Of a DNA stretch of 64,000 nucleotides, positions 14,354 to 61,098 are shown piece by piece (the first letter of the stretch is position 1; each line of letters starts with the position of its first letter). The stretch lies in contig JAQGDQ010000031.1 of the NCBI GenBank assembly GCA_030141605.1, positions 790,001 through 854,000 on the forward strand. Reading direction: 5' to 3'. This stretch comes from Tubiluchus corallicola (lineage: Eukaryota; Priapulida; Priapulimorpha; Priapulimorphida; Tubiluchidae). A program made the translations under genes and the position numbers. Below the pieces are notes generated by a model. It made no database searches and was not told the DNA's origin. It saw nothing but the letters and a program-made list of their open reading frames with translations.

Positions 14354-17300
14354 ATGAGTTTTGATGATAAAGACTTTCCTGGGTTGTATTCGGCAGATGA
14401 CGATTTAGGTAAGTACATATGTGACCCAAAATTTTCATTGTGTAAATTCCAATGACTTTGTTTGCTTGTTATGGTCATTATGCAACTACTTTTATGTAAA
14501 TTGTATACCATGGTATACTGTTAGTATATTTAACTTCCTTAGAGATTCTCATTTCACACTTATGTCAAAGATAATTTAGTTGAACTTAATTTTATACATA
14601 ACCCTTATAAAATAAAGAACGTATGCTGTCTTGATGAGAATTAGAATGTGTCGTGATTGTAGTAATTCAGATAGACAGAAGAAGGGTTTTATTTCCTTGA
14701 TGCCCTATTTCAATATGAAGGCTGTGAATGAACATCCAACTTCTTATCTAGGCAAGGCTACAACGTGGTCAATTAAAAGTGTTGTTATTGTCGTTTTTTC
14801 CAGATGATGAAGGTGAAAAATCATCTCGGAAAAAAGATTCCAAAAAGAAAGACAAGAAGGATAAAAAGGATCGTGGTTACAAAGTTTTTGAAGGTGAAAG
14901 TTCGGGAGAAGAACTTGTTCCTGATGGAACGAAGTGAGTGATATCTTACTTTCTTATATTTTTTGCACATTTGTAACATCAATTTTGATTTACAACTCAC
15001 TAATCAGGGATATTACTGAATGAAATTTTGTTTTGGTTTGCACTTTCTGTTGAGTTTGCTTTCACCGAAAAGTATTAAGTTTCGCAGCTGCAAATTATTT
15101 TCGGAAGCACTTTTCCAAGGTTTTCGTAGTATTTATCCAACTTACCTTTTTTCTGAATGTTAAAAATTGCTGAAAAATAATTTTGGCTAAAATAGTTTAA
15201 TTTAATTTAACTTTTTGTACCATTTGTAGCATACTTTTTACAGCAATGTGGCATATTTTCAGTGCTGACAGCTGAGAAGCTTTAAGATCTCCAGGCACAA
15301 TCAACCGTAATATTAAAGCATAATTTGACTAAAAAACTGTCTGATTTTATAATATATGAAATATAGGCAACAAAATGTTTACAAAATAAAATTTGTCAAC
15401 TTTTTTGAAACTTCGTGATCTTTAGCCATAAACATTGTGCTACTTTTTTGGTTAGGTATTTTTTGCCTAGCTACTTCATCGAGCTTGTATCAGAGCAATA
15501 AAACCAAACAAGCAATAACAAAGTATTTTATTTATTTCTGAATATTCTTCGTTTTTTGATAGTAGGTGGTTTTGCAAAAATGATTTCGGTTCCGTTTAGT
15601 TTCGGTATCGGTTTCCTATGTTTCGTAAATTTCGGTTTCGGCTTGTAATTTCAGTTTCGATAACATGTTTGTTACTAATGTAGTGAAATGCAAATTTCTG
15701 CTTGTGTAGCTAGTAATGACGTAGAACGTGACGTAAAAAAGAAACTTTCCTGCCATTCTTGTCAATTCTTTTTCATGACGACAAGCTTTTAATATCTTTC
15801 TCTCTTTTAACGATGGATATTTTGTTTTAATGAGAAAAATATGGTCTCAGCCTTGTCATATTTATGTTTATAGTGTTGGTTCTTTATCATAAAGCTGCCA
15901 TCAACTGAACTTGTAGACCTTCAATGTTTGTCATCCTTAAAATGTCTATAGCAGATTGTCAGATAACATATTGTGATTTGTTAAAGGTCTGTATTATCTC
16001 AACAGGCATTTAAGTTTTTTTAACGCATTTTTATGATTACACATAATTATTATTAAACAAAGGAAACTTATAACTTAAATTTTTCTGGCGAATTTTGAAT
16101 GAGGGCATTGCCGTGTAGATTGCCATGTTTCGTTTTTTTACACGAGTGAGCAGGAATGACAGCTTTGACACACATTTGACAGCTTATGCATGAGCACAGC
16201 GGTAAATTTGAAACTTAAATTTTTATCTTAAAACTTGCCTAGTTTTAGTACAACACATTGAATATCTTACAGTAGCACTATATTCAACTTTCGCTTTCGC
16301 AAACTCGTGCAACACGCTTGTGGAATATTTTTGCTGTTGAAAATTATATTAGTTTGCGATGTCATCAACAGTTGGGTTCGCCCGCTGTTAGTTAAGATTT
16401 TATTCTATTATTTAAATATCAAAAACGCTTTTGCAGTACTAATTCTGTTAAAATGCGTATGTTTTATGAGGCTTGAGAATTGGGTAGTATATGAAAAATC
16501 ATCCTGCCCTCCTTTACCTTTACATGTTCACCGGCAGTGCAAAACTGCTGTATTTGGCTGAAACACTGTATTTTTATTATTAATCGAAAGCTTACTGCAA
16601 AAAATTTAGTGTGGATGCACTTGCCTTTGGTGGGTTTTATAAATCTGCCTCTTTGAATGTAACTTTTCTGTTATATAGTATAATTTACTTTTTGAGAAAT
16701 ACACGTATTGCAGCCATGAAATCTATTATATTTTTAGCTCATAATTCAGTGTCATATGCTGTTCATTTCAGAAGTCCAATCTCAAAGCTCAAAAAGTCAA
16801 AGCATTCGTTTCGTTTCGCAAAACGACCAGACAAACTGAAAGCGAAAGAGAAGGAGCGGGAAAAGGAGAAGGAAAAAGAGAGGGGGAAAGAAAAAGAAAA
16901 AGAAAAGGAAAAGGCAAAAGAGAAAGAAAAATCAAAGGAAAAGGAAGGAGTTGGAAAATTGAAATTGAAAAGCAGGAAGAAGCATAACATTGGAGGAGCA
17001 ATAGCTGACCTCCCTGGTAAAGTATAAATCATTGTTTATTTTATTTTCTATTATTTGATTCCTAGATCTTGTAGTGACGGTTTCTTAGTACTGTTATGGA
17101 TCTTTTCTTTCTTGGTTTGGCATCTATATTGGGTGGTGAAAAAAAATGCATCAAATTTAAAGTACAGTAATATTAGAAACAAGTGTCCTCCCTACAAAGT
17201 TGAAATTTCACAATGTGTTGTAATACATTAACTTTGTCTAAACTTGCAAGTTTATCCCTTTAAAAGTTTTTGTTAAAGTTGCGACTGAAAAGTTTTCACA

Positions 17301-26199: not shown

Positions 26200-26800
26200 T
26201 CAGTAAAATATTTGAAGCAAAACAGGACGATTTTTCATATCCTACCCCACCCTGAAATACAGTAAAATGTATACATTTTAACAAACATAATAAAACCAAA
26301 GCATTTCTGATAATTAAATAATAGGTTAAAAACTTAATTAATTGCCAGCCCAGCTACTGATGACATCACAAAACGAACACAATTTTCAACAGCACAAACA
26401 TTCTATAAGAGTGTTGAATGTGGTTGTAAAAGTGAAAATCGAAGTACAGTGCTACTGTACAACAATCGGTGACATATACAAAATCTTTTTAAGATAAAAA
26501 TTGAAATTTTAAATTTACAGCTGTGCTCGCACATGAGCTCTTGAACTTGTGTATTACGTCACAAATGAACAGCTCTGAACTGAGATGTGCAGGACATGTT
26601 TTTTATGCAAAGTTTTAATGCAAATCTAACTAAAGAGTGGCGTAACAGCGAAGAACAAACCACTGGAACAGAAAATTATTCTTTCACTAAGTCATTCTTT
26701 AAAAAATAATATGTTCTCTTTCAATATTCTAAAGAGTAGATTGTTTTGACCTACAGTTTAGGATTGGGTCCAGTTTTCCTTTAAATGTTTTTGCTCCCAT
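26200..26800 (+). repeat. Dispersed repeat family R1, copy 2
   Basis: Aligns from end to end with 56880-57490. Shared features are the left-end word GATTTTTCAT, GCATTTCTGATAATTAAATA, a GATGACATCACAAA segment, and a right end reading GGATTG-GTCCAGTTTT. This and the 57-kb copy define a unit of about 600 bp. It lies 3' of AGPS. Confidence 0.85.
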
Positions 26801-41100: not shown

Positions 41101-42670
41101 TTAATATTTATGTTTTTCTATTACTGAAGAGAATTTTCTATTACTAGGAGACGACCTCAATTGCTGCACCTCCCCCAGGTCTACGCTACTCGAAGGCACA
41201 GGTGGGTAAGAACGTCTCGTCGCATGCAACCTAAAATGTCTTGCAGAAGACTGAAGCTGATGCACTTTGCCATGGTCCGTATCAGAAGGTGCAGGTGGCA
41301 AAAATGCGTATGCAGGTGATCCGGGTCGCCTCGGAGAAGACCTCACTGGTCGTTCCAAACTCGGGGATGACTGTGAGATAAAATTCCTAGCAGAAGACTT
41401 TCCGCTGGAAGAACTATTCCGTAAGATTCCATTTGATTGAATTCGCTGTTGACAAGAAAAGATTTCCGTGCCGTTTGTTTAACCGAGGACACAGATGTCG
41501 CCTTGGTAGAAGATTTCACTCTGGATTCAGCAGGAGAACTTTGTTTCTTTGGAGAAAGGTTCCGCTGGCTCGCTCGAGTGGTCGCTCTTGGAATGAACGA
41601 CTTACGAGCCGTCTGCTTTACTGCTGGCTTCTTAATACCAGGACTTGTAACTGATGAATTAGCAACAGGTTGAACGTTGGTCACATGTGCAGCAGCAACA
41701 GAATCTTCTGACAGTACTACGGACGAAAGATCGGGAGGAAACAGTCGACCGACTTGTTTACGACGAGGAGTACTTGTTGCTGGAATAATCTGAGATGACT
41801 GATGTTTTCCGGGCAAATATTTCTTTTTACTACCAATCTGATAAAACATGTGCAACTTTCATATTATAATGTTTCTTTTGTACATTTTAGTAACCAATTT
41901 ATTTGACTAGAACTATTTGTATTGTCTATATTTCTAGAGCTTATTTGCTGAAGTCAGTATAAAAAAATTCCAGAACATTCAAGTTAAAGAGTTTTCAATT
42001 AAAGGGAAGATAAGGGAATTTTAACTGTATCCCAAGGAACTATCTCTGCAGAGTTATATTGCTTAGTATTTTTTAAGTTTTGAGAAATTTTTTAAACATC
42101 CATGAAGGGTGTTTCCTTGTGTTTTAAGCTATTATCTTTTCATAACGGTATGAACAACAAATTGGTGGAACGATTGGCTTTAATAAATCTTGTAAGTCTC
42201 AAAACACTAGGCCACATATTATCCATCATATAAATGTGTGGATGTCTGTGGACACAGTTTATCCCTGAGGCACCCAAGGCAATAATATTATAATTTTATT
42301 AAAGCAATAAGTGTTTGGAAACAGTTTTGCAGTTGCAGCTGTAATGGCAAAAGCTGGCAGAATCTTTCAAAGGTGGCAGTATTGCCTTTCAAGTGGGTGA
42401 AAAATCTGACCTGGGTTAAGCATATGAGGTAACGACCACCTAATTCATCTCGTGGTTTATATCCAGGATGTGTACACTGTAGCTTTGGTATGTTTTGCAC
42501 TAGCGTCTCACAGCATATACAATATCAGGAATTCAGGATAGTGGAAACATTTGTGACAGATTATTGATACCAAGTGTTGAAACATCAAGTGCAACTACAA
42601 ATTTCATCAAACAGATCCTAGTTTCCACGGATATGATGATGTTTTCACACATTTTCTGCATAGTCTTCAT
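41101..42670 (-). CDS. Unrecognised small gene with two histone-H3-tail-like KQTARKS motifs
   Basis: Three exons join in phase: 42670-42571 (start ATG, MKTMQKMCENIII), 42499-42411 (QNIPKLQCTHPGYKPRDELG), and 41837-41101. I do not recognise the family. The last exon is Ser/Lys/Arg/Pro-rich and probably disordered. It encodes KQTARKS at 41618-41598 and again at 41480-41460; this equals residues 4-10 of histone H3. The flanking VxxxxxxxF is also shared, and eight of nine codons differ synonymously between copies, which supports coding. The first frame stops at 41343. A second open frame, shifted by two bases and rich in SSP/SSAR words, runs to a stop at 41101. The two join only by a frameshift or by removing a 38-base stretch (41483 to 41446) that would delete the second motif. 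The first exon is the least certain. Confidence 0.55.
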
Positions 42671-42727
42671 GGCAAATAGACTCATGTGGAAATTAGTTTG
42701 CATTTTTTGTTTTTTAGATCCCTGGTC

Positions 42728-45700
42728 ATGGCAGAATGTCGACTGATCATCAATGCTGATGATTTTGGTTATTGTCCAGAGCGCAATCGTGGCATTGTAG
42801 AATGTTTGAAGGCTGGTGCAGTGACTAGTTTTTCTATCCTTGTCAACTGTGAATTTGCAGAACAGGGAATGCGAATGATACAGACTGATGTCCTGCCATG
42901 CAAACTACCAAATGAAATACCTGCAGGTTTTTACTTTAATCGCATTGTCTCATTTAGTCTAATCATCTAACATATTACTGTAAAAGTTCAAGATTAAAGT
43001 ACAGTGGACTCTCGTTATAAGAATCACCTCGGGAGAAGGCAAAGTGATTCTTATAGCAAGCGATTCTTATAACAAGCATGACACAGAATTGCTTTAAAAA
43101 AATTTTATGCACATAAAAATTATTTATTTCCCGAAATTACGCTAGAAATGACATGAAACAGCATAACGTTTTTCTGGCCTAAAAAGGACCTAAAAATTAC
43201 TAGACTAATGTTTTCATTTCATGGTTGGGTAAATATTTCATGATGCCAGAATTGCCTTAAAAATTTTTTTAATGCACATTATTTTTTCCGCCACGCCCAC
43301 TGCGCAGAACCTTGTAAGCAGGGCGTGAGAGACAATGGAGTTGGTGCCAAAATTGATTCTACTATCGAAAGAAGGGTGATTCTTATACGGGCGGATTTTC
43401 ACTAGGAAAATGCCGATTAAATTCGGGAAACGCGATTTTGATTCTTATATCGAGCTGATTCTTATACGTGTGATTCTTGTAACGAGAGTCCACTGTATTA
43501 TGAATTTATATGTGTGACATCTCCTGACATCCCCCATAGAGTGCTTCATTAGATGTGTCTCAGCAAAAGTTATAATGTATTTTGCGATCTGTGTAAGCAG
43601 GGCTGGCTCTAGGAAGTGTGGGGCTCAATTAGAAAATTGTTAGTGGGGCTCTTTACCCTACTAATACTGCAGAACAGTACAGCGCTCTTTCTATGTTGAG
43701 GGTTTGAATATAGTGCACAAAATAGTAAAATCAAAATTCAATGACGATCTACCTAATGTACATAGGGCTTTATTTTTAAAAAAAAAGGAAATTGTTACAA
43801 TAAACTGAAATTAGAAAACAAAGAAAGAAGTGATCAATAAAAAAACATTAAACATAAACATACGAGGACTGATCGAATAGTTTCACTGCCTGCACAGTAT
43901 CGAGAAACTTCGCACGCATTGGACATTCATTAATTCATCATAGTGTCCTCTACTCGAACACGTGTGCGGGGTTTAGCCCAATTTGAACAAATCTGTCTAA
44001 ATGGATTAAAACTTGGCCCTGCATGTAAGGCCATAACAAAAATAAGGTCCTGCATAAAGCTCATGCCATGAGTTATTAATGCTATTATGATGTTGTTGTT
44101 TAACTTACTTGCTCAATTGTCAAACTGTTAATAGCAAAAATGGAAATACTTATGGCTAAATTAATGGTCGACACTTATTGTCGTGCTGCTGTGTGGAATG
44201 GGAGTTGTTTTGATTAGCCCTGTGTAAATAACATTTCACTATTTCTTCTTAGCACAGCATATGGCTATCTTGGCAGTGATCTGTACATGACTTCCTTTTT
44301 TGAACGTGATGGTGTCAATCTTACCTAAAGCTGTGATACTGAGATACAGAACTACCTGCTTATTAATTAGTAATTGGTTACTGACTAATTACTTTGAAAA
44401 AGATTGTTGGAGCGTTGCTTCTAGGGGAGGGGGATCAGGGCTACTATGTCAAATTAAGTGAATTTTAGAGAAAACTCTGCATCATTTACTCTGAAAAGAA
44501 GTAACATTCTAGCAAAGACAGTCCTTATTTTTATTGCGTTTCATTCAAAATGTTAACCGAACATGTCTGTTGTAACGTGAGAACAAAGCTGATTCTCATT
44601 TTTGTTAGTTTAATTAGTCGTCTTTCTTCTTCTAGGTTTGCACTTGAACCTGACTGAAGGCAAACCAGTAGAAACAACATCACTGGTTTCATCTCTTCTT
44701 GGAAATAATGGCTTCATGCGTGGCAAGGACAAATTCTATGAAGCTTGTAAAAGAAATGAGATTATTTGTGACGAGGTACCGTTTTTGTGTGTTTGGTGTT
44801 GACCTACTGCCCTGATATGTTTTAACAAAATCTTGTGTTTTTAACCGTGCAAAATGTATAAGCTTCATCTTGCGTGGATTACCGTTGTCCATTCTCTGTC
44901 TGGAAGTAACTCTCTCAGTTTGGTAGGAAGATCATTTTCAGGTTTCAAGTTTAGGAACTACTTTTCTTGTAATTATTTTTCTTGGAGTGCCAGTGTACTT
45001 CAGTAAAGTAATTTCACATTTTGGCAAATATTTTTTTTTGGAAATAGTAAGTTTAATCTGAATGGGAGTCTTACAAGACCTTCTGTTTTGAAGCTGAATA
45101 TGAGAGTTAAACTACAGTTGGTTTCGTTATCTATTATAATTTAACAATAGAGACTCTTCTCGATCTTCTAAACAGAACAAACTTTTACTGTCTTATGGAA
45201 CGTTCAAACTAGCACATTTTTTCTCTGACAGCAAACTTGCAAGTGGAACTGCTTTGCTAGTTCCTGTCAGCAAGAAATTGCAAACTGTCTGGCACTAATT
45301 AAACAAGCTAGTTACTTGGCAAGAAAACTCGCTAGTCTGAACGTGTTGTTATAACAACTGCTTCATTTTTTCAAACTTAACTTGCACCAAAAGGCATTTT
45401 TGTTGCAGGTAAGAAGAGAGATTCGAGCTCAAATTGAGAGGTTTTATCAGCTAGTTGGTTGTTATCCAAATCATGTTGACGGTCATCAACATGTTCATGT
45501 GATACCAGGTAAATGATACCAGAGAAATTTAGTTTTCTTATTCATTTTATTTTTCTTTTGATCCAAATAACCTACTTCTTGAATGATCTTTTTCATTCTG
45601 TGATTTTAGTTCTTAACATTTTTATAATAAAACATAATTTTAATTATTTAAGTGGTTTCTAATGGCTTGAAACCTGCCAAAGCACTGAAAGAGCAGAAAA

Positions 45701-49768: not shown

Positions 49769-61098
<11,330 letters not shown>

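Follow-up and report, generated by a model that had tools for sequence, protein, structure and literature searches.

Histone mimics and CENP-U

Histone mimics have so far been known singly, and mostly as four-residue ARKS or ARKT sites. CENP-U belongs, as part of the CENP-O/P/Q/R/U group, to the constitutive inner kinetochore. Work on the Cbx3 chromodomain with H1K26 and G9a peptides showed that Ala at position -2 is strictly required and that the groove is filled by six residues (KKARKS, HRARKT), with H1K26 carrying Lys at -3 (PMC3325965). ADNP, which reads EARKSF, acts at pericentromeric heterochromatin (PMC3022755, PMC3325965), and a trimethylated ADNP ARKSF peptide showed no direct HP1 binding (PMC3022755). 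The methyltransferase G9a needs Arg at -1, R8 being essential (PMC10611923). In yeast, Sli15/Ipl1 is bound and positioned by COMA, the complex that contains the CENP-U orthologue Ame1, and Ame1/Okp1 reads the Cse4 tail (PMC6546395), so that connections of CENP-U with Aurora B and with the recognition of histone tails have been described before, if in a different form. A literature search found no description of CENP-U as a histone mimic, and none of the ten papers found for KQTARKS points to CENP-U in its title or abstract.

A decayed duplicate in the window

The window, i.e. the whole stretch of 64,000 nucleotides analysed here, encodes the peptide VKQTARKSF twice on its minus strand, the copies being 138 bp apart. 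A sequence-only reading had placed the pair in a three-exon protein at this locus. The locus is instead a pseudogene fragment, in which the frame is broken at 41428/41427 and one exon fragment only is present. Its features are the following:

41144..42140, minus strand: partial duplicate of a CENP-U-like gene that lies on contig C1229, with the 3' end of one intron followed by the 5' part of exon 3, almost certainly non-functional; found by comparing the complete C1229 contig with the window in blastn
41144..41837, minus strand: remnant of CENP-U exon 3, aligned to exon 3 of C1229; it follows a conserved 3' splice site (TTTTATCAG), and the homology ends inside the exon
41427..41428, minus strand: junction left by a 55-bp deletion, in comparison with the parent, that shifts the reading frame
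41595..41618, minus strand: motif copy 1, KQTARKSF (AAGCAGACGGCTCGTAAGTCGTTC), DNA identical to the intact parent
41457..41480, minus strand: motif copy 2, KQTARKSF (AAACAAACGGCACGGAAATCTTTT), DNA identical to the intact parent

Searching the assembly with this exon as query yields two copies, one on C1677 with identical sequence and one on C1229 with 85% identity. The region C1677:790001-854000 shows 100% identity to the window at the two places tested, at a constant offset (window + 790000), and therefore seems to be the same locus, held twice in the assembly. With the whole C1229 contig as query, homology to CENP-U in the window is confined to a single segment of approximately 1 kb (41144-42140) and no other CENP-U exons are found; alignment to C1229 likewise places none of the CENP-U domain exons in the window copy. 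The window matches only residues 1-156 and 170-268 of the protein encoded by the parent exon 3. Because the 55-bp deletion shifts the frame, this exon is split into the ORFs 41343-41858 and 41101-41478, which are the two halves of the broken exon and have no match in Pfam. Divergence between fragment and parent amounts to 7.7% in the intron and 5.6-7.9% across codon positions, with a dN/dS of 0.65; such similar divergence in the intron and in all codon positions is as expected for decay. It is almost certain that the window holds a dead, partial duplicate of CENP-U exon 3. A functional second gene at the window locus is very improbable indeed: the 48 bp of motif DNA are unchanged relative to the parent despite about 7% divergence elsewhere, and an ORF of 171 codons is still present, but the frame is shifted, exons 1, 2 and 4 onward are lost, the CENP-U domain is absent, the dN/dS of 0.65 is near-neutral and zero changes in 48 bp have a probability of about 0.03 under neutrality. 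The case carries a warning: a conspicuous motif noticed in raw sequence can belong to a dead copy while the live parent lies elsewhere.

Several other elements surround the fragment. It is adjoined by an exon at 42680-42970 on the plus strand, whose product MAECRLIINADDFGYCPERNRGIVE resembles a YdjC-type carbohydrate deacetylase, and nearby, at 43000-43492, lies an element with inverted-repeat ends (cagtggactctcgttacaagaatcac ... gtgattcttataacgagagtccactg) that is probably a short DNA transposon. One dispersed repeat family occurs at 16169-16506, 26209-26601 and 56876-57279 of the window and also in a CENP-U intron on C1229.

The intact parent gene

On C1229, the corresponding exon is open over 418 codons and forms part of the following gene model:

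C1229, 32049-31961, 29901-29754, 28241-27010, 26351-25675, 24031-23923, 23770-23692 and 23549-23440, minus strand: exons of the CENP-U model, with GT-AG borders, joined in phase

These seven exons join to 814 residues, and a candidate further last exon (NLAAKVIANRREKGLPIDDVFSSSDDDD) brings the model to 842 residues; its first and last exons are predictions, and the gene has at least seven exons. The joined protein matches the CENP-U profile PF13097 at residues 710-798 (36.3 bits, E 7.2e-9, cut-off 21), and its isolated C-terminal region reaches 41.5 bits. The family that the earlier reading could not recognise thus becomes visible from the intact copy, while intact exon 3 alone has no Pfam match. 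A genome-wide, exon-by-exon search for the CENP-U family returns the C1229 gene alone, at a score below the cut-off for a single exon. A phmmer comparison of the CENP-U core with PDB sequences gives no match, so that the homology is visible only by profile and direct alignment. Human CENP-U (PDB 7pb8_U) aligns to the same core with a local score of 61, compared to a shuffle mean of 33.6 (z 4.7), the best of 500 shuffles scoring 62 and thus above the real sequence; identity between the two proteins is 23% in a MAFFT alignment. The assignment rests mainly on the PF13097 profile, the human alignment being weak by itself, and on this sequence evidence the intact C1229 gene is identified as CENP-U.

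Both KQTARKSF sites are intact in the C1229 gene, at residues 164-171 and 210-217 of the model, within a tail that contains many SPxK/SPRR sites. The product is predicted to consist of a long disordered N-terminal tail rich in Ser, Pro and Arg, followed by a short C-terminal CENP-U domain, and the tail is best read as rapidly evolving and disordered. Readings of the tail as a PxVxL or LxxIxE (B56) ligand were rejected, both motifs being absent; for PxVxL, the chromoshadow motif, this extends to the complete 842-aa model. An RVxF-like site is found at residue 13 only (KLVIW). Where exons 1 and 2 of the model join, the sequence LRYSKRKVTLRPWVFE is similar to the CENP-C motif (R-x-S-x-R...P...) apart from one additional residue.

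Apparent constraint on the repeated peptide

The two VKQTARKSF copies of the window lie at 41618-41595 and 41480-41457. One reads GTA AAG CAG ACG GCT CGT AAG TCG TTC and the other GTT AAA CAA ACG GCA CGG AAA TCT TTT, the Val codons preceding KQTARKSF being GTA and GTT. As the sequence-only reading had stated, eight of the nine codons differ and all do so synonymously; the changes affect third positions only (0/18 first and second positions changed). For KQTARKSF alone, 7/8 third positions are changed and none of the others. Given the window's base composition, chance alone would produce KQTARKS 0.44 times and KQTARKSF 0.024 times in six frames of the 343.5-Mb assembly, so that two occurrences of KQTARKSF in one exon are not due to chance, in agreement with the earlier suspicion. 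The likeness to residues 4-10 of histone H3 also holds within this genome, as the same heptapeptide is encoded by the H3 genes of the assembly. Copying from an H3 gene was considered and rejected, since the codons are unlike those of the H3 genes seen and adjacent H3 residues are not in common. The flanks of the two sites in the live gene show no mutual resemblance. Near-saturated synonymous divergence combined with unchanged amino acids points to constraint on the peptide in the CENP-U tail.

Recurrence in other genes

A genome-wide search with a degenerate KQTARKS pattern recovers the H3 genes, the CENP-U copies, a gene on C2063, and matches on C304 and C2145 that sit in short ORFs. A relaxed pattern adds three further genes, listed here together with the C2063 gene:

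C2063:138236-133728, minus strand: gene with KQTARKSF (site KSKKQTARKSFPHC), five exons, ~430 aa with exon phases adjusted by hand, C-terminal coiled coil
C1987 (L069:1235-2899): RQTARKSF near the N-terminus of a 555-codon ORF with a basic C-terminal stretch; relaxed pattern
C1395, around 260.1-260.8 kb: HKQTAKKSF, HKQKAKKTF, HKQTAKKSF and HRQKAKKSF in an 807-codon ORF; relaxed pattern
C1923: KQKARKSF in a C2H2 zinc-finger ORF; relaxed pattern

The C2063 gene is unrelated to CENP-U and no relative of it was found in Pfam or PDB. The presence of exact KQTARKSF in two unlinked genes, compared to 0.024 expected, corresponds to a Poisson probability of about 3e-4. The C1395 ORF, for which Pfam gives no match, has a Cys-rich N-terminus and contains, at regular spacing, four H[KR]Q[TK]AKK[ST]FS sites and two degenerate AKKSCS sites. 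The consensus [KR]Q[TK]A[RK]K[ST]F covers nine sites in five genes, compared to 0.32 sites expected per genome, an enrichment that is optimistic as the wider consensus was fitted post hoc to the matches; a tenth match, in a 17-codon ORF on C968, was taken as chance and left out. Because the consensus was fitted after the matches were known, more weight is placed on exact KQTARKSF in two unlinked genes. A reversed-peptide control of the consensus gives three sites, in ORFs of 12, 35 and 45 codons, and none in a long ORF. The close H3-tail versions in four other genes suggest, at the level of sequence, a docking site used repeatedly as an imitation of the histone tail.

It is improbable that the motif is a functionless, old internal repeat of a low-complexity tail whose recurrences elsewhere are due to chance. 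The tail does contain other internal repeats (RSSPRRP, DHGEVHQLQSS/DPGEVQQLRSS and a 33-bp tandem), and the consensus is post hoc. However, such a repeat would not account for divergence that nears saturation at third positions while sparing the first and second, for the exact octapeptide in a second, unlinked gene, or for a reversed control devoid of sites in long ORFs. The KQTARKSF sites of CENP-U are probably a selected binding or modification motif.

Such a motif could serve a lineage-specific partner unrelated to the readers of H3, the likeness to H3 4-10 being chance convergence and the true consensus being [KR]Q[TK]A[RK]K[ST]F with an essential Phe. The Phe at +2 is present in 9/9 sites, whereas H3 has Thr11; furthermore, the equivalents of T6 and R8 vary to Lys, and the Gln-to-Phe spacing (Qx5F) recalls a PIP-box, without its central hydrophobic residue. 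This explanation is unlikely, though it retains some weight, as the core A-[RK]-K-[ST] coincides with what chromodomains need (PMC3325965) and the sites in CENP-U (twice), C2063 and C1987 match H3 at 6-7 of seven residues. A PIP-box proper was rejected for the tail motif, whose central position does not fit, and so was a WDR5 WIN motif, because Lys replaces Arg at several sites.

A proposed H3K9-like mechanism

Under the preferred histone-mimic reading, the two KQTARKSF sites in the CENP-U tail would serve as H3K9-like linear motifs. A SUV39/G9a-type enzyme would methylate the lysine equivalent to H3K9, after which an HP1-type chromodomain may bind the Q-x-A-x-Kme-S/T strand, with Ala in its small pocket, and this binding would tie the inner kinetochore to pericentromeric heterochromatin. 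In mitosis, phosphorylation of the adjacent RKS-F serine by Aurora B would release the reader. Methylation, reader, Aurora B switch and localisation are steps that we infer. The genome encodes a chromoshadow (HP1) gene and Pre-SET methyltransferase genes.

Across the sites, Ala-2, Lys0 and Ser/Thr+1 are constant, and these are the residues needed by HP1-type chromodomains. Position -3 is Thr or, as in H1K26, Lys, position -1 is either Arg or Lys, and by analogy such a peptide would fit the Cbx3 groove. A specific HP1-type reader of KQTARKSF in CENP-U is possible, at somewhat less than even odds. The ADNP result is a direct caution here because its peptide has the SF in common with KQTARKSF. 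By the same kind of analogy, G9a should not be expected to accept the fourfold series on C1395, which has Lys at -1.

The serine beside the motif lysine is a plausible Aurora B site, and only four Aurora-type [RK]x[ST]-hydrophobic sites occur in the CENP-U model, two of which are RKSF. The motif could even be chiefly a site for Aurora B or another basophilic kinase, its resemblance to H3 arising from the fact that Aurora B also phosphorylates H3 at S10. The match of RKSF to the kinase pattern, at two of only four sites in 842 aa, and the binding and positioning of Sli15/Ipl1 by Ame1-containing yeast COMA (PMC6546395) speak for this account, whereas a kinase consensus leaves unexplained why all nine sites, spread over five genes, keep Gln at -4 and Ala at -2, and this account is regarded as rather unlikely.

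Taken together, a dead CENP-U duplicate combined with an H3K9-like motif in the live gene, with HP1 as its reader and Aurora B as its switch, is given a probability of roughly 0.5. Of the histone-mimic scaffold first proposed, the part concerning the heptapeptides survives, as these are real, non-random and constrained-looking and occur in a chromatin protein; the window locus as their functional home does not, being a pseudogene fragment. The sequence partly supports the mimic idea, and a chromatin protein bearing a histone-mimic motif is the preferred interpretation. The live gene makes this reading worth testing, its function being one that we infer. If true, a seven-residue copy of H3 would place CENP-U in direct connection with the pathways of H3K9 methylation and of Aurora B and would offer a simple peptide-level test of crosstalk between the constitutive kinetochore and pericentromeric heterochromatin. 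A broader version, in which [KR]Q[TK]A[RK]K[ST]F is a docking code common to several non-histone proteins of the lineage, CENP-U among them, which would compete with or replace the H3 tail at a chromodomain reader, with Aurora B in control, is speculative and on the doubtful side.

Comparison with known systems

The C1229 protein and known CENP-U (PF13097; human MLF1IP, PDB 7pb8 chain U; yeast Ame1) have in common the C-terminal domain and coiled coil, the order of elements, the LYCP/IWCP signature and a disordered N-terminal tail. The tail before the domain is much longer, with ~705 residues compared to ~230 in human CENP-U. KQTARKS was not found in human CENP-U (7pb8_U), and since this relative lacks the heptapeptide, the motif is not one that CENP-U carries in general.

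Compared to the H3 N-terminal tail, KQTARKS is identical to residues 4-10 of the H3 genes in the same genome, but in the C1229 protein the motif is internal (no free Ala1), Phe replaces Thr11, a histone fold is absent and other codons are used. The described ARKS/ARKT mimics (G9a K185, histone H1.4 K26, ADNP K767, LIG1 and WIZ) likewise present an A-R-K-S/T core in a nuclear protein. Exact ARKS occurs in the CENP-U model at two sites, each inside KQTARKSF, with Ala at -2. In contrast to the known mimics, seven H3 residues (K4-S10) match here, followed by Phe; one kinetochore protein carries the motif twice, and it recurs, exactly or as a variant, in four further genes of the same genome.
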